Made by a program: the position numbers and the translations under genes. From Streptosporangiaceae bacterium (GTDB taxonomy: Bacteria; Actinomycetota; Actinomycetes; Streptosporangiales; Streptosporangiaceae), in the NCBI GenBank assembly GCA_030037785.1, contig JASHQA010000179.1:1-57046 (forward strand): a stretch of 57,046 bases of DNA, in the 5' to 3' direction. A model generated the notes under the pieces. It saw only the letters and a program-made list of their open reading frames with translations, was not told the DNA's origin and made no database searches. Numbering within the stretch: the stretch's first letter is position 1; each line of letters starts with the position of its first letter. Below are positions 18,728-48,422 of the stretch, one piece after another.

Positions 18728-18982
18728 CTTTCTGCCCGGAGCGGCACCATTCGCCGCGCCCACTCATACCAAGAGTTAACCAGAGCGATCAGTTGCCTTT
18801 AGCCCGCGTGACGCATGTCCATAACAGCAAGTGCCCGATCGGGGACTGTGAGTAGTTTCGGGCTTCGTGCCTACGGGCCCGTCACGAGTCTCCCTACTGC
18901 ACGACCTGTCAACCGGGGGCCGGCGTACCGCCCGGGGGGAGGGCTGCGGGCGCGCCTGACTTGTTGTGCTGGAGGTCTGCTT

Positions 18983-20446
18983 GTGGCCGGAAACCTGACT
19001 GTCCCCGAGGCGCTGCACGTCGAGCAGTCCGTCCGGACGGTCGGCCGCCGCGTCACGCCGTGGACGAGCAGGTACCTGCGGGTCGTGACGCTCGCCGATA
19101 TCGGCTGCGGGCTCACCGCGGGCGTGCTCGCGTTCGAGGTACGGTTCAGCGTCGCCGGTCAGCGACCGAATGCCTACCTCGGTCTCGGGCTCGCGCTGCC
19201 ATTGCTGTGGCTTGCAGCCCTTGCCCTTTCCGGTGCCTATGACACCCGGTTTATCGGTGTCGGCTCCGACGAGTTCCGGCGGGTGCTGAACGCGGGAGTC
19301 TGCCTGACCGCCGCCGTCGCGCTCGCGTCCTACGCCACCAAGGCAGGGGTGGCCCGCGGCTACGTCGTCGTCGCGCTGCCGACCCTTACCTGCCTCGACC
19401 TAGTGGTGAGGTACCGGCTCAGGAAGCGGCTGCACCGCCGCCGAGCTCGTGGCACGTGCATGCGACAGGTCGTGGTCGCAGGTCACGCGGGTGTCATTGC
19501 CGACCTGATCGGGATGCTGCGGCGCGAGACCTATCACGGCATGACCGTCGTGGCTGCGTGCGTGGCGGAGCCCCCGCGACCGGCCGTGATCGACGGGGTA
19601 CCGGTGGCCGGCGGCCTCGACGACATACCGGACGTCGTCTCGCGGCACGCCGCGGACACCGTCGCGATCCTGGCGTGCCCGGAGATGATCGGCACGCGAC
19701 TACGCGATCTTGCCTGGACTTTGGAGAAGACCGGTACTGATCTCTGCGTCGCGCCCGCCCTCATCGACGTCGCGGGGCCGCGCACGACGATCCGGCCCGT
19801 AGCCGGGCTGCCACTGCTGCACGTCGATCATCCCGATCTCAACGGCCTGCGATGGCTGATCAAGTCTGCCTTCGACCGGACCGTCGCGGTCGTCGCGCTC
19901 GTCGCGCTGCTTCCGCTGCTCGCCGGCATCGCACTCATGATCCGGCTGACGGACCCTGGCCCGGCCCTGTTCCGGCAGACCAGAGTCGGCAAGGGCGGGC
20001 GGCTGTTCACTGTGTACAAGTTCCGTACCATGGTCGCCGAGGCCGAGACCCGGAAAGCCGCGTTGATGGCGCTCAATGAGAGCGACGGCCTGCTCTTCAA
20101 GATTCGCCGGGACCCGCGCGTCACGCGGACTGGCGGCTGGCTCCGGCGCTACTCGCTGGACGAGTTGCCACAGTTCATCAACGTCCTGATCGGCGACATG
20201 TCGCTGGTTGGTCCCCGCCCGGCGCTGCCGAGCGAGACCGACTCCTATCGGGACCACGTACGCCGCCGGCTCGCGGTCAAACCGGGAATCACCGGGCTCT
20301 GGCAGGTGAGCGGGCGGTCGGACCTACCGTGGGAAGAAGCCGTCCGGCTCGACCTGCGCTACGTGGAGAACTGGTCGTTCGTTCTCGACCTGCAGATCCT
20401 GTGGAAGACCTGGTCCGCCGTGATGCACGGGGACGGTGCGTATTGA
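18983..20446 (+). CDS. exopolysaccharide polyprenyl-glycosylphosphotransferase (initiating sugar transferase)
   Basis: GTG start with SD ggagg at 18971-18975; N-terminal TM segments; KSAFDRTVAVVALVALLPLL...RVGKGGRLFTVYKFRTMV...SLDELPQFINVLIGDMSLVGPRPALPSE. Confidence 0.95.
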   Translation: MAGNLTVPEALHVEQSVRTVGRRVTPWTSRYLRVVTLADIGCGLTAGVLAFEVRFSVAGQRPNAYLGLGLALPLLWLAALALSGAYDTRFIGVGSDEFRRVLNAGVCLTAAVALASYATKAGVARGYVVVALPTLTCLDLVVRYRLRKRLHRRRARGTCMRQVVVAGHAGVIADLIGMLRRETYHGMTVVAACVAEPPRPAVIDGVPVAGGLDDIPDVVSRHAADTVAILACPEMIGTRLRDLAWTLEKTGTDLCVAPALIDVAGPRTTIRPVAGLPLLHVDHPDLNGLRWLIKSAFDRTVAVVALVALLPLLAGIALMIRLTDPGPALFRQTRVGKGGRLFTVYKFRTMVAEAETRKAALMALNESDGLLFKIRRDPRVTRTGGWLRRYSLDELPQFINVLIGDMSLVGPRPALPSETDSYRDHVRRRLAVKPGITGLWQVSGRSDLPWEEAVRLDLRYVENWSFVLDLQILWKTWSAVMHGDGAY

Positions 20447-21048
20447 CCGGGCCGGTGGCCGACTGCGCGGTCGTGACAACCCCTGGCCCCGACGTCAGCG
20501 ATGGCATCGACGTCGCACCCCTCGTTCGCCGGGCGGCAGCCGGAGACAAGGCGGCTTGGGAAGGCCTCGTCGACCAGTTCTCTCGGCTGCTCTGGGCAAT
20601 GACCAGGGACTTCAGGCTGGCCGAGGTGGACGCTGCCGACGTGGTGCAGGCAACGTGGCTGCGCCTGCTCGAGCACATTGATCGGATCGAGTACCCGGAA
20701 CGGATCGGCAGCTGGCTTGCGACCACGGCGCGGCACGAGTGCCTCCGCCACATCGCCGCCAGTAAGAAGCTCACCCCCGTCGACGATCACGACATCGTGT
20801 TCAGCGGTCCCGCGGCGCATCAGCCAGAGATAGAGGAGCGGCTACTCGCCGAGGAACGCGCGCAGGCGGTACGGGCGGCAGTCGCCACGCTGCCGACCCG
20901 ATCACAGCGCCTCCTCGAACTGCTGATTGCCGATCCCCCGGTTTCCTACACGGAGATATCCGCGCAACTCGGTCTGCCCGTTGGCAGCATCGGGCCGACC
21001 CGCGGTCGCTGTCTCGAGCGACTCCGGCTCATTCTGCGGCCGGTCTGA
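20443..21048 (+). CDS. ECF-type sigma-70 family RNA polymerase sigma factor
   Basis: DQFSRLLWAMTRDFRLAEVDAADVVQATWLRLLEHIDRI (sigma2) and LLELLIADPPVSYTEISAQLGLPVGSIGPTRGRCLERLR (sigma4); TTG overlaps the TGA of the upstream gene, or GTG at 20455. Confidence 0.88.
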   Translation: MTGPVADCAVVTTPGPDVSDGIDVAPLVRRAAAGDKAAWEGLVDQFSRLLWAMTRDFRLAEVDAADVVQATWLRLLEHIDRIEYPERIGSWLATTARHECLRHIAASKKLTPVDDHDIVFSGPAAHQPEIEERLLAEERAQAVRAAVATLPTRSQRLLELLIADPPVSYTEISAQLGLPVGSIGPTRGRCLERLRLILRPV

Positions 21049-21060
21049 GACATGACGATG

Positions 21061-22173
21061 TCAGGAACAGATCGCGTCAGCGACCACCCAGCGACCACCG
21101 TCCGCCTCCACTTCCGGGAATGCGGTCCGGACTTCACGGATCAGGTCAGCGACGAGAACCAGCACGGCGTCGGGTCGCGCGGCGTGCAGGACATCGGTGC
21201 CCAGCACGGGTATGTCAGTGCCAGGCATCCGCAGCCCGTGCTTCGCCGGGGCGGCGTCGACGATGGCCGGCAGCAAGCCGGCGTCGATACCTGCCCGGCA
21301 GAGCAGTGCCACCGCCCGGGACGCCGCGCCATAGCCCAGCACGGTGCGCCCGGCGGCCTGCTCGGCAGCGAGCCAGGTGCGCAGGCTGACCGCCCGTCGC
21401 CGCGCGTCACGTTGCAACCCGGTCAGTACCGCAGGGTCGCGCACGCCGGTCCGGGCTTCGGAGTCCAGCAGCGCACGCACGGTTGCGTCCGGACCCGCGC
21501 AGTCAGCTGTCGCACGGGCCGCCGCGAGCAGCACGGTGCCGCCGTAGAGGTCAAACTGCCACGCGGTTGTCGGGCGGAGGCCGTGGCTGGCCAGCATCGC
21601 ACTGAGAGCGGTCGTGGAGTAGTACGCGTAGTGCCCGTGCCGCAGCGCGTTCCACTGGCCAGCGCGGATGATCGTGGCCAGCGAGTGAAACTGCAGCAGC
21701 AGCACTCCGCGGGAGGTCAGCCTCGCGGCCCGCTCCCGCAGCGCAGCGTCCTGATCTGCGGCGTGCATCATGCCAAAGCAGTCGATGATCACATCGGCTT
21801 GATCGCCGTCATCCGCCGTCGCAAGGCCCCGGCCGGCCATGAGGCCGAGCCAGGACCCGCCGTGCGGGCTGCCATACTCCGCGACGGTTCCCCCCGCAGG
21901 CAGCAGCCCGGCGGCGTGTACCTGGCTCACGGCGTCAGCCGCCTGAGCCACCAGTGCGGCCGGCTCGGTGGCCCTGGGCTCACCCGGAACGGTCGGATCG
22001 GCGACCAGCTGGGCCAGGCCGCAGCCTGCGCAGAGCCACATCTGGAGCGGGTAGACCGGGTCCGGGCGGGGCTCAGCCACTGCCGGAAAGTAGTCGCACG
22101 CGGGCTGGCTGCCCAAGTCCAGCACCAGCACGCCGCGCGGGGACCGGCACGCTCGGCACCTCGTCTCAGTCAT
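21061..22173 (-). CDS. SAM-dependent C-methyltransferase (Zn-binding N-terminus + Methyltransf_14-like C-terminus)
   Basis: CRACRSPRGVLVLDLGSQPACDYF...LCAGCGL...VLGYGAASRAVALLCRAGIDAGLLPAIVDAAPAKHGLRMPGTDIPV. Confidence 0.82.
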   Translation of the reverse strand: MTETRCRACRSPRGVLVLDLGSQPACDYFPAVAEPRPDPVYPLQMWLCAGCGLAQLVADPTVPGEPRATEPAALVAQAADAVSQVHAAGLLPAGGTVAEYGSPHGGSWLGLMAGRGLATADDGDQADVIIDCFGMMHAADQDAALRERAARLTSRGVLLLQFHSLATIIRAGQWNALRHGHYAYYSTTALSAMLASHGLRPTTAWQFDLYGGTVLLAAARATADCAGPDATVRALLDSEARTGVRDPAVLTGLQRDARRRAVSLRTWLAAEQAAGRTVLGYGAASRAVALLCRAGIDAGLLPAIVDAAPAKHGLRMPGTDIPVLGTDVLHAARPDAVLVLVADLIREVRTAFPEVEADGGRWVVADAICS

Positions 22174-22234: not shown

Positions 22235-23461
22235 TTGCAATATTCATGCCGTCTTTGTGACGCGGATGTCACGCGTACGTTCGTCGACCTCGGAATGTCG
22301 CCCCTGTGCGAGAGCTACGTTCGCTCAGAAAATCTGGACTCGACGGAGAACTTTTACCCACTGCACGTCCGAATATGCGACTCCTGCCTACTCGTGCAGC
22401 TGCCCGCGTACGTACCCGCCGAGGACATATTCTCGGACTACGCATACTTCTCGTCCTATTCCGAGTCGTGGGTAGCGCACGCGAAGCGATACGCCGACTC
22501 GATGATCGACCGGCTCAGCCTCGGCCCGGGCAGCCTCGTCACCGAGGTAGCGAGCAATGATGGCTATCTGCTGCAGCACTTCTACCAAGCCGGTATCCCG
22601 GTCCTCGGCGTCGAGCCGGCCAGGAACGTCGCGACCGTTGCGGTTTCCCGCGGAATCAGGACGGAGGTCGAATTCCTCCGGCCCGAGACCGGCGCGCAGC
22701 TCGCCGAGCGCCACGGGCAGGCTGACCTGGTAGCGGCGAACAACGTGCTGGCCCACGTGCCAGACATCCGCGGCTTCGCCATCGGCCTTCGTGCGCTGGT
22801 CAAGGACACCGGAGTCGTCACGCTGGAGTTCCCGCACCTGCTGCGGCTGATCGAGCGCCGCCAGTACGACACGATCTACCACGAGCACTTTTCCTACCTG
22901 TCGCTGCGCACTGCTGCCCGCGCCCTCGGCGTCGCCGGGCTTCGCGTCGTGGATGTCGACGAACTGGAGACGCACGGCGGTTCGCTGCGCGTCTACGCCC
23001 GACCGGCCGACGCCGCTGGGGAGCCGACTAGCCGGGTCAAGGCCGTGCTGAACGCCGAGGACGCCGCCGGACTGCACACGGTGGCAGGGCACGCCGGCTT
23101 CGCCGGACAGGTGCTGAAAATCAAGGGAGACCTGCTGAGATTCCTGCTCAGTGCGGCCGCTGCCGGTCGCTCTGTGGCCGGATATGGCGCCCCCGGCAAG
23201 GGGAATACGCTGCTCAATCACTGCGGCATTCGTTCCGACCTGGTCGCCTATACCGTCGACCGGAGTCTGGTGAAGCAGGGCAAGTTCCTGCCCGGCACCC
23301 ACATTCCGATTTACGCACCAGACCGCCTGCGCGAAACCAGGCCAGACTACATCCTTGTGCTGCCATGGAACCTTCGGGCGGAGATTACCAAGCAGCTCGA
23401 TTATGTGCGGGACTGGGGCGGCCGACTGGTTTTCCCGATTCCCGAGCTTGACGTCATCTGA
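22235..23461 (+). CDS. SAM-dependent C-methyltransferase (sugar C-methyltransferase family)
   Basis: CRLCDADVTRTFVDLGMSPLCESYV...ICDSCLLVQLP...VTEVASNDGYLLQHF...YHEHFSYLS...GYGAPGKGNTLLNHCGI. Confidence 0.92.
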   Translation: MQYSCRLCDADVTRTFVDLGMSPLCESYVRSENLDSTENFYPLHVRICDSCLLVQLPAYVPAEDIFSDYAYFSSYSESWVAHAKRYADSMIDRLSLGPGSLVTEVASNDGYLLQHFYQAGIPVLGVEPARNVATVAVSRGIRTEVEFLRPETGAQLAERHGQADLVAANNVLAHVPDIRGFAIGLRALVKDTGVVTLEFPHLLRLIERRQYDTIYHEHFSYLSLRTAARALGVAGLRVVDVDELETHGGSLRVYARPADAAGEPTSRVKAVLNAEDAAGLHTVAGHAGFAGQVLKIKGDLLRFLLSAAAAGRSVAGYGAPGKGNTLLNHCGIRSDLVAYTVDRSLVKQGKFLPGTHIPIYAPDRLRETRPDYILVLPWNLRAEITKQLDYVRDWGGRLVFPIPELDVI

Positions 23462-23472
23462 GGGGGCCGTGC

Positions 23473-24345
23473 ATGAAGGTCGTGCTATTCTGTGGCGGGC
23501 TAGGAATGCGAATGCGTGATGGCGTCACCAGCGCACCCAAGCCGATGGCCATGGTGGGCGACCGACCGCTGCTGTGGCATGTGATGCGGTACTACGCGCA
23601 TTTCGGTCATACCGAATTCATCCTCTGCCTCGGTTATGGCGCCTCGTATGTCAAGGACTTCTTCCTGCACTACGACGAGACCACGTCGAACGACTTCGTA
23701 CTGGAAAATGGAGCCCGCGACGTCAGCCTGTTCCGGACCGACATCTCAGACTGGCGGATCACGTTCGTCGACACCGGGCTCACCTCGCCCATCGGCGAGC
23801 GGCTGCGCCGGGTCCGACGCTTCGTCGCCGACGAGCCGCTGTTCCTCGCCAACTACGCCGATGTGCTCACGAACGCCTCGCTGCCGGACATCATCGATCG
23901 CCTCGCCGCTAGCAGCGCGATAGCGAGCTTGCTGGCCGTGCCGCCGCAGTCATCGCACCACGTCGTGGAGATCAGCGACAACGGCGTGATCAGCCAGGTG
24001 ACTCCGATGCGCGACCTGCGCCAGTGGGAGAACGGCGGCTACTTCGTGCTCCGGCAGGAGATCTTCGACTACCTGCAGGAGGGCGACGACCTGGTGGAGG
24101 ACTCCATCATGCGGCGGCTGGTGCCGAAGCGACGCGTGCTGGCCTATCCGTACAAGGGCTACTGGTCGCCGGCCGACACGGTGAAGGAGCGCGCACAACT
24201 GGAGGAGATGTATCACCGTGGCTACTGCCCGTGGATGGTCTGGGACGCCGACCGGTCGGCAGCGGTCCCGTCGCAGGGCATCGCGCTCGCGAACCTCGGC
24301 GCGGTGGGCGCGGCCTCGCCCATGCCAACGGCAGTAGCGGAGTGA
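23473..24345 (+). CDS. rfbF: glucose-1-phosphate cytidylyltransferase-like nucleotidyltransferase
   Basis: MKVVLFCGGLGMRMRDGVTSAPKPMAMVGDRPLLWHVMRYYAHFG; GYWSPADTVKERAQLE. Confidence 0.88.
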   Translation: MKVVLFCGGLGMRMRDGVTSAPKPMAMVGDRPLLWHVMRYYAHFGHTEFILCLGYGASYVKDFFLHYDETTSNDFVLENGARDVSLFRTDISDWRITFVDTGLTSPIGERLRRVRRFVADEPLFLANYADVLTNASLPDIIDRLAASSAIASLLAVPPQSSHHVVEISDNGVISQVTPMRDLRQWENGGYFVLRQEIFDYLQEGDDLVEDSIMRRLVPKRRVLAYPYKGYWSPADTVKERAQLEEMYHRGYCPWMVWDADRSAAVPSQGIALANLGAVGAASPMPTAVAE

Positions 24346-24351
24346 CGGGCG

Positions 24352-25038
24352 ATGCTGCCGGTGCGCTTTGCCGTCCCGCCGGACACGGAACTGTCCGTAC
24401 TAGCGGTCGGCGCTCACGCCGACGACATCGAGATCGGCGCTGGCGGTTTCGCCCTGGCGCTGGCCGAAAGCCAGCCTGGCCTGCGCGTGCGCTACCTGGT
24501 CCTGACCGGGAGCGCCGAGCGACACGACGAGGCGCGGCAGGCCGCCAGTTCCTTCTTTCCCGGCGCGGACATCGCCGTCGAACTGCACAGCCTGGCTGAA
24601 GGCAGGTTGCCCGCGGTGTGGGACCAGGTGAAGGAGATCCTGGCCGAGGTCGCTCGTTCGTACGTTCCGGACCTCATCATCGCGCCGCACGAGCGGGACG
24701 CGCACCAGGATCACCGGACCATCGCAGAGATCATCCCCACGGTGTTTCGCGACCACCTGTACCTGGCCTATGAGGTGCCCAAGTGGGATGGCGACCTCGG
24801 CTGCGGCCGACCGTCGCTGTACTGGCCGCTGTCGGCCGAAGCTGCCCGGCGCAAAGTCGACCTGCTGCACAAGTGCTTCCCGTCACAGCACAGCCACGAC
24901 TGGTGGGACGACGAAGTCTTCCTGGGCCTGGCCCGGTTGCGGGGCATGGAGTGTCGCGCGGTCTACGCCGAGGCCTTCATGTGCTCGAAGTTGGTGTTCG
25001 GCAGCCAGCTGCCGACTGAGATTGGGAGCAGGGAGTAA
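24352..25038 (+). CDS. PIG-L family deacetylase (LmbE-like)
   Basis: AVGAHADDIEIGAGG...HERDAHQDHRTIAE zinc-site motifs. Confidence 0.92.
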   Translation: MLPVRFAVPPDTELSVLAVGAHADDIEIGAGGFALALAESQPGLRVRYLVLTGSAERHDEARQAASSFFPGADIAVELHSLAEGRLPAVWDQVKEILAEVARSYVPDLIIAPHERDAHQDHRTIAEIIPTVFRDHLYLAYEVPKWDGDLGCGRPSLYWPLSAEAARRKVDLLHKCFPSQHSHDWWDDEVFLGLARLRGMECRAVYAEAFMCSKLVFGSQLPTEIGSRE

Positions 25039-25044
25039 CCAGCC

Positions 25045-26052
25045 ATGACCGTGCTCATTGACCCGGACCTGCGGGAAGACGCGTTCCGGCAGGCCATCTA
25101 CGGCGGCAAGCTGATCGTGCTGACCCGCCTCCCGGCGGTAAGGGAACTCGCGGACTACACCCGCGACCAGCTCGCCGAGCTGTTCCGGCCGCACGATCCC
25201 GAGCACGCGCACGAGCACATCGAGCCCGCCGAGATGGCCAGGCTCCTCGGTGCGTGGAAGCCCCGCTGGATCCACTCAGAGCGGTCAAGGACGCTCGTGT
25301 GCGAGATCGTTACGCAGGCCGGGCTGCCGGCCGAGTTCACCCACTACGACGTGCCCAAGCCGCGCACCGCGTTCCCGGTAGGCCACCTCACTACGGGCGT
25401 GGCGTGCGCTTTCCCCTGGCACCGGGACTCCTGGTACAGCGCGCCCGCCCAGCAGGTCAACTGGTGGTTGCCCGTCCTCCCCGTCCGGGAAGACAACGCC
25501 ATGGCGTTCGACCTCAGCAGCTTCGGCCGCGCAGTGCCCAACACATCCGACACCTTCGACTACTACCGGAACAACGCCCAGCGGCTCACCACTGCGAGGC
25601 AGGTGGGCCGCGAAGAGCAGTCGCGGCCGGGAGCCATCGACCACGAGGCCGCCCACGAACTCATCGTCCTGCCCTCGCCCGGCGCCGTGCTGGTGTTCGC
25701 CGGCGCGCAGCTGCACACGTCGATCCCGAATACCTCTGGGCTGGCCCGCTACAGCATCGACTTCCGCACCGTCGACGCGCGGGATCTCGGGTCCGGACTG
25801 GGCGCACCGGTGGTGGACGCGCACTGCACCGGCACCGCGATCAGGGACTTCCGCAACGTCGGCCACGACGCCGCGTTCGACGAGCGCCTCGTGGCGGAGA
25901 TATTCGGGGCACCGCCCGCGGACGCGATGCTCGTGTTCACGCCGGCCGACGCGGACCGGGCGCCCAGCGGCCCCGTTGCTACAGAGCTACGTTCTCCGGG
26001 GACGCGCCGGACCCCCTCGCCGCCGCGCTCGAATGCGAAGGTGCCGGGTTAG
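25045..26052 (+). CDS. putative Fe(II)/2-oxoglutarate-dependent (phytanoyl-CoA dioxygenase-like) oxygenase
   Basis: AFPWHRDSWYSAP (HxD), GAVLVFAGAQLHTSIPN (distal His) and ARYSIDFR (Arg) in order; overall family assignment is weak. Confidence 0.55.
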   Translation: MTVLIDPDLREDAFRQAIYGGKLIVLTRLPAVRELADYTRDQLAELFRPHDPEHAHEHIEPAEMARLLGAWKPRWIHSERSRTLVCEIVTQAGLPAEFTHYDVPKPRTAFPVGHLTTGVACAFPWHRDSWYSAPAQQVNWWLPVLPVREDNAMAFDLSSFGRAVPNTSDTFDYYRNNAQRLTTARQVGREEQSRPGAIDHEAAHELIVLPSPGAVLVFAGAQLHTSIPNTSGLARYSIDFRTVDARDLGSGLGAPVVDAHCTGTAIRDFRNVGHDAAFDERLVAEIFGAPPADAMLVFTPADADRAPSGPVATELRSPGTRRTPSPPRSNAKVPG

Positions 26053-28600
26053 CCGCTCGGAACAGAGCGGCGGACAGCGCAGCGAACTGGTCGTCGATGA
26101 GCTGAGCATTCGCCGCGTTACGCTCGGCGATCGCCTGGCGCACCGCTCCCGCGCGGTGCTCGAGCTCGGCGAACAACCTGATGAGTCTGTCGAGGTCGAG
26201 ATGACTCGCCGACTCGCAGAACTCGGATAGTCCCATGCTCGCCATGAGGGTGCGGAACTTGGCCGAGTAGCCGAGCGCGAGGGTTGGCTTGCCAAGCTTG
26301 AGCGCGCAGACCACGTTGTGATACCGGGTCGCGACGACCAGACCGACATCCGCCATCTCGCGTGCTACCTCGGCGAACGAGGCAGCCGACGCGATGACGA
26401 TGCTGCCGGCGTCGAGATCAGGCCGATCGGCACGCACGTGCGCGAGAATCTCGTCCGCGACGCTGTTGTCATATCTGTCGTCTCCGCTGAACAGCCGCAC
26501 CGTGTGACCGGTGTCGACGAGCCACGATGTGAAGGCCTTCAGCACGGTCAGGTAGGAGGCGTGAATATCCGCGGCGTTGCGCCGGTCGTCGTTGCCGCCG
26601 TAATAGGCCATCACCCCGACGCCGACCGTGCGCATGTCACCGGCACCGGCCGGCGGGAACGGGGTCGCGAACGCCAGATCGGGATAGACACGATCCCGTG
26701 CGACAGCTAGCCCGCGGCGCTGCATCGCGGCTTTCGACAGGTCGTCGCGATAGGACCGGTAGTAGGCAAGGCGCGCGGCCGCGTCGAGGAACCAGCGTGT
26801 CAGCGGCTGGCTGATCACGTTCGCCCCGACGCTCGCCAGCGCGACCTTGGTCCGGAAGACCCTGCCGGAGGCGCACAGCAAGAACATCGCGTACGGGAAG
26901 CCGAACGGCTTCACCGGAAGCGTTGCCTCCAGAGCCCCAGCCCCCGGCACGATCACGATGTCGTGCCGGCGAACCCAGTCAGCGGTGCGGGCTGCGTCGA
27001 TCGCCTTGCCTAGCGCCTTCAGCCCGATGGCGACGACACCGGTCGCGTCGCGCTGGCGGCCCGCGTACCAGAGCACCGGTATCGCGGGGATGCCGTACTT
27101 CGCCTCGACCACTTCCGGTCCGCCGCACATCGCGTCGATGACCGCGTCCGGATGCTCACGGCGGAGATAGTCAAGGACAGACTCCATCGAAACGTCGTTG
27201 CCGGTGTTGCCGGAGCCGAGAAGGCCGAACAAGCCGACCTTCGGGACCGCACCGTTAGCTGCCCTCACGTACTGAGCTCCCTTCGCACGTTGTGGTCGAC
27301 AGCCTCGGATTGATGAACGCGCTCGGGGCGCCGCCGTAATCGCCGCCTCCCGCAGCGCCACACGCAGCTGCCACCACCACACGACGGCGCCGACCCAGGT
27401 GGCGACGGTCGCCCCGCAGATGGCCCCGAGTGCACCGTCCGCGACCGCACCGGCGAGGCCGCAAGCGAGGTACACGGCAGCGCTCCAGACCATGGCTCGC
27501 AGGCTCCGCCGAGCGGCGGCCAGCGCGTGCAAGCCGGCCGTCGCGCCGGCGATGAGGCAGGCACCCATGACCGACGCCGTCATGGGCAAGACCAGCTCGT
27601 AGGTGGGTCGCCAGAGCCCGCCGAGGAGCAGGTCGCCGGCCCCCCGCGGCAGCGCTACCAGCAGGAAGGCGCCCCAGGCAAGCGCCGCGACGGCGAGCCC
27701 CGTGCCGACTGTCAGGCAGAACATGGGCAGTCGCCGCGGCGACCGGCGCAGCACGCGGTTGGCCTCCGGAATCGTCACCAGCGACATGCCCATGAACACA
27801 ACGAGGAACGGGCCCATCAAGGTGGACACCGCCTGCACGTATCCCACGGCTGCCAAGCCGGCGAGGATGCCGACGCCATAGCTGCGGAGCTGGGAGGCGC
27901 CACTGTTGCACGTGTTCTCAGCCAGATAGCGAGGGCCAAGCTCCCGAGTCCGTGCCAACCACCGGGGAATGCTCGACGGGCGAGGCAGGACCCTGGCTTG
28001 CAGTGGCCCCACGCCGGCCGCGACCGCGGCTCCCGCGCCCCACACGAGGATGAAGGCGGATACGCTCGCGTGTCCCGACATCCGCACGTAGATCAGTCCC
28101 GGCACCATCGCGAGCGCCCACGTGCAGTCGTTCAGGAATGCTTGACTGCCGCGGCCAACAGCGAAGAAGGCGTACCGCCAGCTGTCCTGGAGCAGGAGGC
28201 CGGGCAGCACAAGTCCGAGGGCAAGGAATGCGGCCCTGGTTGTTCCGGTCAGCACCCCGGTGGTAACCAGAACCACGACTCCGCTGGCGAAACCGACAGC
28301 CAGGGCGGTCGCTGAACTGCTGGCCACCGCACGCCGCCACGCTGGCGTCCGCGGACCGCTGAACCGGACCATGAGCGGATCCGTGGCGAGTCCACGCGAC
28401 GCATTCAGCGCGAAGGAGTACGTGACGTAGGCAAGGCTGAACGCACCGAACGACACGGCCCCAAGGACGCGGGCAACATAGATGGTCATCGCGAAGTTGG
28501 TCAGGCTGGACATCGCTTGGTCTGCAAGACCCCAGCTCAGCCGGCGGGCGATACCGCGAAAGCGCTTGGCGGGGACGACCGCCGTGCCATTTTCTAGCAT
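25979..28600 (-). CDS. N-terminal polysaccharide flippase (Wzx/MATE-like) fused to C-terminal polysaccharide pyruvyl transferase (CsaB-like)
   Basis: 873-aa uninterrupted ORF; ~12 hydrophobic segments then VGLFGLLGSGNTGNDVSMESVLDYLRREHPDA...IVPGAG...VVATRYHNVVCALKLGKPTLALGYSAKFRTLM. Confidence 0.85.
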   Translation of the reverse strand: MLENGTAVVPAKRFRGIARRLSWGLADQAMSSLTNFAMTIYVARVLGAVSFGAFSLAYVTYSFALNASRGLATDPLMVRFSGPRTPAWRRAVASSSATALAVGFASGVVVLVTTGVLTGTTRAAFLALGLVLPGLLLQDSWRYAFFAVGRGSQAFLNDCTWALAMVPGLIYVRMSGHASVSAFILVWGAGAAVAAGVGPLQARVLPRPSSIPRWLARTRELGPRYLAENTCNSGASQLRSYGVGILAGLAAVGYVQAVSTLMGPFLVVFMGMSLVTIPEANRVLRRSPRRLPMFCLTVGTGLAVAALAWGAFLLVALPRGAGDLLLGGLWRPTYELVLPMTASVMGACLIAGATAGLHALAAARRSLRAMVWSAAVYLACGLAGAVADGALGAICGATVATWVGAVVWWWQLRVALREAAITAAPRARSSIRGCRPQRAKGAQYVRAANGAVPKVGLFGLLGSGNTGNDVSMESVLDYLRREHPDAVIDAMCGGPEVVEAKYGIPAIPVLWYAGRQRDATGVVAIGLKALGKAIDAARTADWVRRHDIVIVPGAGALEATLPVKPFGFPYAMFLLCASGRVFRTKVALASVGANVISQPLTRWFLDAAARLAYYRSYRDDLSKAAMQRRGLAVARDRVYPDLAFATPFPPAGAGDMRTVGVGVMAYYGGNDDRRNAADIHASYLTVLKAFTSWLVDTGHTVRLFSGDDRYDNSVADEILAHVRADRPDLDAGSIVIASAASFAEVAREMADVGLVVATRYHNVVCALKLGKPTLALGYSAKFRTLMASMGLSEFCESASHLDLDRLIRLFAELEHRAGAVRQAIAERNAANAQLIDDQFAALSAALFRAANPAPSHSSAAARGSGASPENVAL

Positions 28601-46659: not shown

Positions 46660-47718
46660 ATGCGAGTTCTGGTTGCGGGTGACCGCGGCTACATTGGTGC
46701 GATTCTTGTCCCGTTCTTGCTCGCGGCCGGCCATGAGGTCGACGGGCTCGACGCCGGCTTCTATGAGGGCTGCGACCTCGGCCCTCCGGCCGAGGCCGCA
46801 CGTAGCCGGCGAGTGATCGACATCAGGGATGTCAAGGCCGGGCACCTGGCGGGCTACGACGCGGTTGTCTGCCTGGCGGCCCTGTCCAACGACCCACTGG
46901 GCGACCTCAATCCGGCCGCCACGTTCTCCGTAAACCTAGACGGCACGCTGCAGCTGGCTCGTGCCGCGAGGACAGCTGGCGTCAAGCGCTTCCTGTTCGC
47001 ATCATCCTGCAGCCTCTACGGCGCCGCGGGCTCGGCCGGGGTGGCCGAAGACGCGCGGTTGTACCCGGTCACGCCCTATGGCGAGGCCAAGGTGCAGGCC
47101 GAACGCGAACTGTCGCGGCTGGCCACCGACTCCTTCAGCCCGACGTACCTGCGCAACGCGACGGCCTACGGATTCTCGCCCCGGCTGCGGCTGGACATCG
47201 TCGTCAACAATCTGGCCGCCGTCGCGACGACGACCGGCAAGGTCAGGCTGGAGAGCGACGGCACCCCGTGGCGTCCGCTGGTGCACGTCGAGGACATCAG
47301 CCGCGCGTTCCTCGCCGTCCTCCAGGCGCCCCGGCACGTCGTCCACGACCAGGCGTTCAACGTCGGCCGGGCTGAAGACAACGTGCAGATCAGGGACATC
47401 GCCGAGCTCGTCCGGGACGTCGTGCCCGGATCTGTGCTGTCGTTCGCCGACGGCGCCGGAGGAGATCTGCGCAACTACCGGGTCGATTTCGCGAAGCTCG
47501 CGGATACCTTCCCCGAGCTGGACATGCGCTGGAGTGTGCGAGACGGGGTCACGGAACTCGTCGGAGCATATTCCGAGCACCGGCTGAGCTACGCAGACTT
47601 CACGTCCGCCAGGTACGTCCGGCTCCGCCGGATCTGCGAACTCCTGGAGTCGGGCCACCTCGACCGTCTGCTGCGGCGTACCGAGTCTGACCGCGTGACC
47701 GCGGCAGCTACCCGCTAG
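46660..47718 (+). CDS. NAD-dependent epimerase/dehydratase (extended SDR)
   Basis: MRVLVAGDRGYIGAILVPFLLAAGHEV...FASSCSLYGAAG...TPYGEAKVQAE (YxxxK). Confidence 0.92.
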   Translation: MRVLVAGDRGYIGAILVPFLLAAGHEVDGLDAGFYEGCDLGPPAEAARSRRVIDIRDVKAGHLAGYDAVVCLAALSNDPLGDLNPAATFSVNLDGTLQLARAARTAGVKRFLFASSCSLYGAAGSAGVAEDARLYPVTPYGEAKVQAERELSRLATDSFSPTYLRNATAYGFSPRLRLDIVVNNLAAVATTTGKVRLESDGTPWRPLVHVEDISRAFLAVLQAPRHVVHDQAFNVGRAEDNVQIRDIAELVRDVVPGSVLSFADGAGGDLRNYRVDFAKLADTFPELDMRWSVRDGVTELVGAYSEHRLSYADFTSARYVRLRRICELLESGHLDRLLRRTESDRVTAAATR

Positions 47719-47759: not shown

Positions 47760-48422
47760 GTGATCGCCGGCTCGGTGTCGCGCATCGCAGGCGTGGTGCT
47801 GTTCACGCCGACTCCGCACGTTGACGAGCGCGGCTTCTTCTCCCGCACGTTCGACGCGGAGGTCGCCCGCGGGGCGGGCATTGATCCCGGCTGTTTCGTT
47901 CAGGACAGCATTTCCCGCTCGGCGCTTGGGGTAGTACGCGGTCTGCACGTCCGCCGCGGCCGGGGTGAGGCCAAGCTCGTGCGCTGCTCGTACGGCGCGG
48001 TCTTTGACGTCGTGCTCGATCTACGGCCCGGTTCGCCGACCTACTTGCGGTGGGAGAGCTTCGAACTGGCCGACGACTCGCAGACGTCACTGTTCATCCC
48101 GGCCGGGTGCGCGCACGGCTTCCAGGCCCGCACGAGTCCGGCGGACGTTTCCTATCGCATAGACCGGCCGCACGACCCGAGCGAAGACGTGTCGATCGCC
48201 TTCGACGATCCCGACCTGGCTATCCCGTGGCCGCTGCCGGTGTCGGTCATATCCCGGCGGGACCGGCTCGCCGTGCGGCTCGCTGAGGCTGTCGGGCTGC
48301 TGCACGCGCCGAGGCACGGTGGGCAGCCGACCCCGGGGCGCGAGACAGCCGATGCTGATCCAGATCGGTCCGTGGCGGCAGCTCCTGGCGAGCCCCGGCG
48401 CGACCCCGCGGCGACGTCCTAG
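47760..48422 (+). CDS. dTDP-4-dehydrorhamnose 3,5-epimerase family (RmlC-like)
   Basis: DERGFFSRTFD...VRGLHVRRGRGEAKLVRCSYGAVFDVVLDLRPGSPTYLRWESFELADDSQTSLFIPAGCAHGFQ. Confidence 0.92.
   Translation: MIAGSVSRIAGVVLFTPTPHVDERGFFSRTFDAEVARGAGIDPGCFVQDSISRSALGVVRGLHVRRGRGEAKLVRCSYGAVFDVVLDLRPGSPTYLRWESFELADDSQTSLFIPAGCAHGFQARTSPADVSYRIDRPHDPSEDVSIAFDDPDLAIPWPLPVSVISRRDRLAVRLAEAVGLLHAPRHGGQPTPGRETADADPDRSVAAAPGEPRRDPAATS

Follow-up and report, generated by a model that had tools for sequence, protein, structure and literature searches.

The operon at 22235-26052 raises two linked questions: what a sugar C-methyltransferase, a cytidylyltransferase and a deacetylase make together, and what the oxygenase-like protein encoded after them contributes. 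The window, i.e., the whole stretch of 57,046 nucleotides that was analysed, carries four plus-strand ORFs at this place, and their coordinates bear out the gaps of 11, 6 and 6 bp given in a first-pass annotation. The four genes and their neighbours are as follows.

18815-20446, plus strand: undecaprenyl-phosphate sugar transferase (Bac_transf), the repeat-unit starter, a neighbour conserved among relatives.
21061-22173, minus strand: second C-methyltransferase-like protein, divergent from the operon, with RHGH in place of YHEH.
22235-23461, plus strand: TcaB9/MtmC-type sugar C-methyltransferase (C-MT; Methyltransf_13/23/14), with YHEH and the SAM motif EVASNDG intact.
23473-24345, plus strand: RfbF-like sugar-1-phosphate cytidylyltransferase (CyT), with a PKPM motif; nearest solved relative 1tzf.
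24352-25038, plus strand: PIG-L/LmbE deacetylase (PIG-L), with the zinc-site motifs AHADDIEIG and HERDAHQDH.
25045-26052, plus strand: divergent PhyH-like Fe(II)/2OG oxygenase, with H126, D128, H224 and R235.
25979-28600, minus strand: fusion protein with a flippase-like N-terminal half followed by a polysaccharide pyruvyl transferase, the convergent neighbour of the oxygenase gene.

The rest of the window is a polysaccharide locus, and the operon most likely sits in one of the Wzx/Wzy type. The second C-MT-like gene, which is kept at the same place in relatives, has a likely ATG start at 22173 within a longer ORF reaching 22272. At the other end of the operon, the oxygenase gene overlaps its convergent neighbour by 74 bp, and the last ~25 residues of the protein are not conserved.

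The C-MT exceeds the Pfam cut-offs for PF08421, PF13489 and PF08484, and these three domains together with the YHEH catalytic motif place it among the TylC3/TcaB9-type sugar C-methyltransferases. Its best solved relatives are MtmC (4rv9; ~283 bits) and TcaB9. The match of the CyT to TIGR02623 spans the full length and scores 195.6 bits, under the equivalog cut-off of 300.25; the use of glucose 1-phosphate, and indeed of CTP, is therefore assumed. The PIG-L passes PF02585 (50.9 vs. a cut-off of 28.2 bits) with its AHxDD and HxxDH zinc motifs present, and lies under the BshB1 equivalog cut-off (50.6 vs. 182.5 bits). The equivalog scores of these two proteins are consistent with a product other than a C-methyl sugar, in which case the RfbF-like enzyme would use another nucleotide or a non-sugar phosphate and the PIG-L would be an esterase or amidase acting on a later intermediate. 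We consider this improbable, given the strong match of the C-MT to MtmC with an intact catalytic motif, and the position of the gene set among sugar transferases and RfbC.

The first-pass annotation had interpreted the four genes as a dedicated sugar pathway. Their reading as a coherent sugar-modifying operon holds, but the set is not self-contained: two genes of a wider cassette, overlooked at first, lie 20 kb downstream in the same window.

46660-47718, plus strand: cassette SDR (F2), with SSCSLYG where the dehydratase TDE motif is expected.
47760-48422, plus strand: RfbC/RmlC-like sugar 3,5-epimerase.

The SDR is 72-75% identical in five relatives and does not contain the Thr-Asp-Glu active-site motif of NDP-sugar 4,6-dehydratases; the dehydratase D-E dyad is replaced by C-S in all 11 aligned SDR sequences. 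The best PDB match of its L028 orthologue is 6vo6 (98.9 bits), which we take to be Cj1427, and the similarity suggests that the 46660 SDR resembles this enzyme. Cj1427 is a C4-dehydrogenase that is recycled by 2-oxoglutarate (PMC10680097). With a Cj1427-like SDR devoid of the dehydratase dyad, a 4-keto sugar could thus be formed in the absence of RfbG. The earlier observation that the window holds no RfbG can be extended, as no match over the TIGR02622 cut-off was found in the organism's own genome or in seven relatives; the set was rightly set apart from a standard CDP-dideoxyhexose (rfbFGH) pathway. Alternatively, the cassette could follow the classical scheme and yield a CDP-6-deoxy C-methyl sugar, the gene for the 4,6-dehydratase being located at another site in the genome. 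TcaB9 and MtmC do act on 4-keto-6-deoxy dTDP sugars, and several SDRs elsewhere in G000 are weakly similar to TIGR02622 (best 81.8 bits). However, none reaches the cut-off in the eight genomes, no 4,6-dehydratase is annotated in the 8-9 kb cassette flanks of the plasmid records, and the Cj1427-like SDR is present, which makes the classical route fairly unlikely.

The C-MT, CyT and PIG-L genes fall within a larger cassette, which is found repeatedly in both Actinomycetota and Alphaproteobacteria. It includes the SDR and, variably, RfbC, DUF4910, a glutamate-1-semialdehyde-aminomutase-like (GSAM-like) PLP enzyme and a second C-MT-like protein. Combinations of C-MT, CyT and PIG-L with SDR, DUF4910, rfbC and GSAM-like genes were found in Streptomyces, Tsukamurella, Gordonia, Neorhizobium, Mesorhizobium, Rhizobium and Qingshengfaniella; in the Actinomycetota and Alphaproteobacteria examples the genes often overlap by 4 bp. 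Both DUF4910 and the cassette-type aminomutase (>50% identity) are absent from G000, G001, G004 and G027. The cassette is often plasmid-borne in Actinomycetota and rhizobia, and its recurrence in these groups implies that many soil-dwelling and symbiotic bacteria may share a cell-surface sugar not yet described. A literature search, with most subscription papers outside its reach, found nothing published on the cassette.

The fourth gene had been proposed as a candidate 2OG oxygenase on the basis of HxD...H...R residues, with their conservation as a check. These residues, H126, D128, H224 and R235, are invariant across 24-26 homologues at 27-78% identity. Profile comparison with the PhyH set (hhalign, probability 92, P 6.6e-7) aligns the HxD, H and R with the catalytic residues of PhyH, and every profile match in the PDB is an Fe/2OG oxygenase (PtlH, CytC3 and leucine hydroxylase). 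Pfam matches are weak and all under cut-off (PF13759, PF05721); the score against PF05721 (PhyH) is 14.7 vs. a gathering cut-off of 22 bits, with a close relative (L014) at 20.8. The AF2 model has a mean pLDDT of 36, obtained from a shallow alignment of 8 close sequences, and a scan of viral contigs for further homologues found none. Taken together, the invariant motif and the profile match to PhyH support the candidate as a real 2OG-oxygenase-like protein.

Among the genomes tested, the oxygenase occurs almost only alongside the cassette: in a set of 100 relatives, 10 of 10 oxygenase genomes carry the cassette CyT, which is found in 21 of the 100 (Fisher P 2e-8). The four-gene order including the oxygenase is repeated in three other MAGs. 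The oxygenase gene directly follows that of the PIG-L in four genomes and lies directly upstream of C-MT or CyT in four more; it adjoins C-MT in three further genera and CyT-SDR-CMT in G204, and in Sinorhizobium americanum it is found within the cassette cluster. The oxygenase could in principle be a stray catabolic PhyH-like enzyme in a coincidental position, as distant homologues in other Actinomycetota (~27-37% identical to the window or L028 proteins) have neighbours unrelated to sugars, among them sarcosine-oxidase-like and IclR-like genes, and a Phyllobacterium plasmid carries a copy among transporter-like genes, without the cassette on that record. We regard this as very improbable, since those distant homologues form a separate, long-branched group and the association with the cassette, seen in at least two arrangements, persists when counted by genus (P 1e-7).

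Outside the four-gene group, the nearest oxygenases (61-66%) are those of Dactylosporangium and do not adjoin the cassette; all 4 Dactylosporangium genomes carry both, unlinked. This separation, and the location of the G030 oxygenase beside GT and F8-type genes with the cassette on a different contig, could indicate that the oxygenase has some other component of the polysaccharide locus as its target, be it a different sugar, an acyl or pyruvyl group or the lipid carrier, and simply co-travels with loci that bear the cassette. Such an independent role is unlikely in view of the positions directly next to PIG-L, C-MT or CyT and the strict co-occurrence even where the genes are unlinked. Three genomes of the same genus hold the cassette without the oxygenase, which is therefore not needed for the core sugar. 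The oxygenase is thus accessory to the cassette, yet tied to it, and most likely tailors the C-methyl-branched CDP sugar of the cassette or the glycan that holds this sugar. Its near-exclusive occurrence with the cassette makes it a genetic handle, and its substrate should help reveal the cassette product.

On balance, the C-MT, CyT and PIG-L probably form the core that makes a C-methyl-branched, likely CDP-linked, sugar for a Wzx/Wzy polysaccharide, with the accessory PhyH-like hydroxylase tailoring that sugar. From gene order, intact motifs, cassette conservation and oxygenase co-occurrence we infer the reactions, nucleotide, order of steps and product of a possible pathway. The CyT would activate a sugar 1-phosphate, and the Cj1427-like SDR (46660) would oxidise C4, so that a 4-keto sugar forms with no dehydration at C6. 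The RfbC-like enzyme (47760) may then epimerise C3/C5, and the C-MT would methylate beside the ketone, at C3 by analogy with TcaB9 and MtmC. The PIG-L would subsequently take an acyl group off an amino position, and the oxygenase could hydroxylate the activated or lipid-linked sugar with O2 and 2-oxoglutarate. Entry by C4 oxidation would mean that branched sugars can be reached in two ways, the other being through a 4,6-dehydratase. More tentatively, a cross-phylum pathway may rely on direct C4 oxidation, not on 4,6-dehydration, for its CDP-linked, C-methyl-branched sugar, and a new Fe(II)/2OG oxygenase subfamily may have been recruited more than once to hydroxylate or desaturate that sugar or to close a ring in it, while it is attached to the nucleotide or the lipid, which would give an undescribed polysaccharide building block.

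Several known systems share features with this scheme. The CDP-3,6-dideoxyhexose pathway (rfbF, rfbG, rfbH) shares the RfbF-like cytidylyltransferase and the supply of a polysaccharide sugar, but here the C-MT, PIG-L, Cj1427-like SDR and RfbC take the place of an RfbG over cut-off. The 3-C-methyltransferases TcaB9, MtmC and TylC3 of antibiotic pathways have the three-domain architecture and YHEH of the window C-MT, whereas they serve dTDP-4-keto-6-deoxy sugars in natural-product clusters and the C-MT has an RfbF-like partner in a polysaccharide locus. Modification of GDP-heptose in Campylobacter (Cj1427, Cj1430 and a C4-reductase) likewise combines a C4-dehydrogenase-type SDR with a C3/C5 epimerase and no C6 dehydration, although it involves no C-MT, PIG-L or RfbF-like enzyme. 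The TIGR04324 family, the sporadic carbohydrate cluster 2OG-Fe(II) oxygenases, is named for carbohydrate clusters, but the window oxygenase scores 14.6 bits against its 150-bit cut-off. This oxygenase, whose Pfam scores are all under cut-off, has the HxD...H...R order and the profile-profile match to PhyH in common with the PhyH-like Fe(II)/2OG hydroxylases, among them PtlH (2rdn) and the sugar-acting KdoO.

The sugar operon in the window is real and coherent, and the finding is bigger than the first-pass annotation had it. The source genome is a 4.34 Mb draft in 461 contigs (93.6% complete), of which the window is the entire contig C298, and its kin are MAGs labelled Streptosporangiaceae. ORF coordinates bear out the four plus-strand genes initially read from the sequence, spaced by 11, 6 and 6 bp. 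The operon and its surroundings comprise the following features:

20455-21048, plus strand: Sigma-70-region-2 protein, ECF-like, between a sugar transferase and the cassette
21061-22173, minus strand: second protein like the sugar C-methyltransferase (C-MT), divergent from the operon, with RHGH where C-MT has YHEH
22235-23461, plus strand: C-MT; MtmC 4rv9 match of ~283 bits, motifs YHEH and EVASNDG (Pfam and PDB comparison)
23473-24345, plus strand: RfbF-like cytidylyltransferase (CyT); 1tzf match of 151 bits, TIGR02623 score of 195.6 bits against an equivalog cut-off of 300 bits
24352-25038, plus strand: PIG-L deacetylase; AHADD and DAHQDH motifs both intact
25045-26052, plus strand: oxygenase-like protein; Pfam matches all sub-threshold
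25979-28600, minus strand: fused 873-aa ORF; C-terminal half polysaccharide pyruvyl transferase (PF04230), N-terminal half flippase-like
46660-47718: cassette SDR, ~20 kb downstream of the operon
47760-48422: RfbC-like epimerase, ~20 kb downstream of the operon

The four genes first proposed as a dedicated pathway form a coherent operon, but this operon is one piece of a larger cassette, with the SDR and RfbC-like genes lying ~20 kb downstream. The four-gene order is known from draft genomes, of which two carry public names (L013 and L019, both from one metagenome project, JOPF), and their proteins are 67-82% identical to those of the window. Four other genomes of the same family have SDR, a DUF4910 protein and one unassigned protein next in line after C-MT, CyT and PIG-L. 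Plasmids from Streptomyces (L042), Tsukamurella (L044) and Gordonia (L123) on the Actinomycetota side, and further from Neorhizobium (L041), Mesorhizobium (L121), Rhizobium (L122) and Qingshengfaniella (L043), also carry the cassette core, in which C-MT, CyT and PIG-L mostly overlap by 4 bp. RfbC, DUF4910 and an aminomutase-annotated protein are variable members of these plasmid cassettes. Loci of the latter two are:

L042:15930-17255, L044:12330-13682, L123:11341-12678, L041:2131-3537: glutamate-1-semialdehyde aminomutase-annotated protein
L028:4654-5922, L042:10647-11936, L041:4786-6072: DUF4910/M28-like protein, repeatedly adjoining the cassette SDR

Recurrence of the aminomutase across phyla suggests an amino-sugar step. 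Neither DUF4910 nor a cassette-type aminomutase (>50% identity) was found in the window's genome or the three others with the four-gene operon; in draft genomes such absences weigh less than presences. The cassette appears uncharacterised in the searched literature.

The fourth protein aligns with Fe(II)/2OG oxygenases. H126, D128, H224 and R235 are invariant in every homologue row reaching those positions (down to 27% identity), so the HxD/H residues on which the first-pass annotation had staked its assignment are conserved. The family profile matched the PhyH protein set (probability 92, P 6.6e-7) with HxD, H and R each in register, and PDB profile matches were Fe/2OG oxygenases only (PtlH, CytC3 and a leucine hydroxylase). 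A structure model, built from an alignment of 8 close sequences only, failed.

Three same-genus genomes (G002, G003, G005) carry C-MT, CyT, PIG-L and SDR and lack the oxygenase, which is thus an accessory gene; in G002 the gene at that site, which converges on PIG-L, encodes a class IV aminotransferase. Among 100 relatives, the oxygenase occurs in 10, all of which fall among the 21 with cassette CyT (Fisher P 2e-8 by genome, 1e-7 by genus, with CyT called at >=330 bits, a threshold picked after the score gap was visible, and relatedness accounted for at genus level only). Outside this sample, four Dactylosporangium genomes have both the oxygenase and CyT-PIG-L, at separate places; in two of them the latter was read as C-MT-CyT-PIG-L adjoining SDR. 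Genome G204 has the order oxygenase-CyT-SDR-C-MT and no cassette-type PIG-L, and in Sinorhizobium americanum the oxygenase lies ~11 kb from PIG-L in one cluster. The site of the oxygenase varies by lineage, lying after PIG-L in the window but upstream of C-MT or CyT in other lineages, and a long branch parts the two arrangements in the tree. This suggests that the association formed repeatedly and does not reflect inertia. Overall, the oxygenase is convincingly an accessory gene linked to the cassette. A Phyllobacterium plasmid has the oxygenase and no cassette on that record, and the L017 contig (Acidimicrobiales) is too short to judge. Distant homologues in apparently catabolic operons (L071:2517-3383, L072:6394-7251, L076:9472-10311) adjoin sarcosine-oxidase-type-like and IclR-type-like genes and likely represent a catabolic branch of the family. 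Within unannotated loci, the genes next to those of interest were called by a simple codon-usage script.

Beside the operon, the second C-MT-like protein keeps its place in relatives, and its kin adjoin cassettes in G204 and Dactylosporangium. The two halves of the fused ORF match separate genes in relatives (L098, L099), and 74 bp of this ORF are shared with the 3' end of the oxygenase gene. The Sigma-70-region-2 protein, conserved in G001-G004, is a possible dedicated regulator.

C-methyltransferases of this family methylate beside a ketone, as TcaB9 and MtmC are known to do. No CDP-glucose 4,6-dehydratase scored over the cut-off in the window's genome or seven relatives. The best PDB match of the cassette SDR (taken from the L028 orthologue) is 6vo6, which we take to be Cj1427; the dehydratase D/E dyad is missing from all 11 aligned SDR sequences. 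We propose a series of putative reactions in which activation would be followed by C4 oxidation, by analogy with Cj1427, then optional epimerisation, C-methylation, deacylation and, last, hydroxylation by the oxygenase. In the Cj1427 system, C4 of GDP-heptose is oxidised, NADH is recycled by 2-oxoglutarate and a C3/C5 epimerase acts next (PMC10680097).
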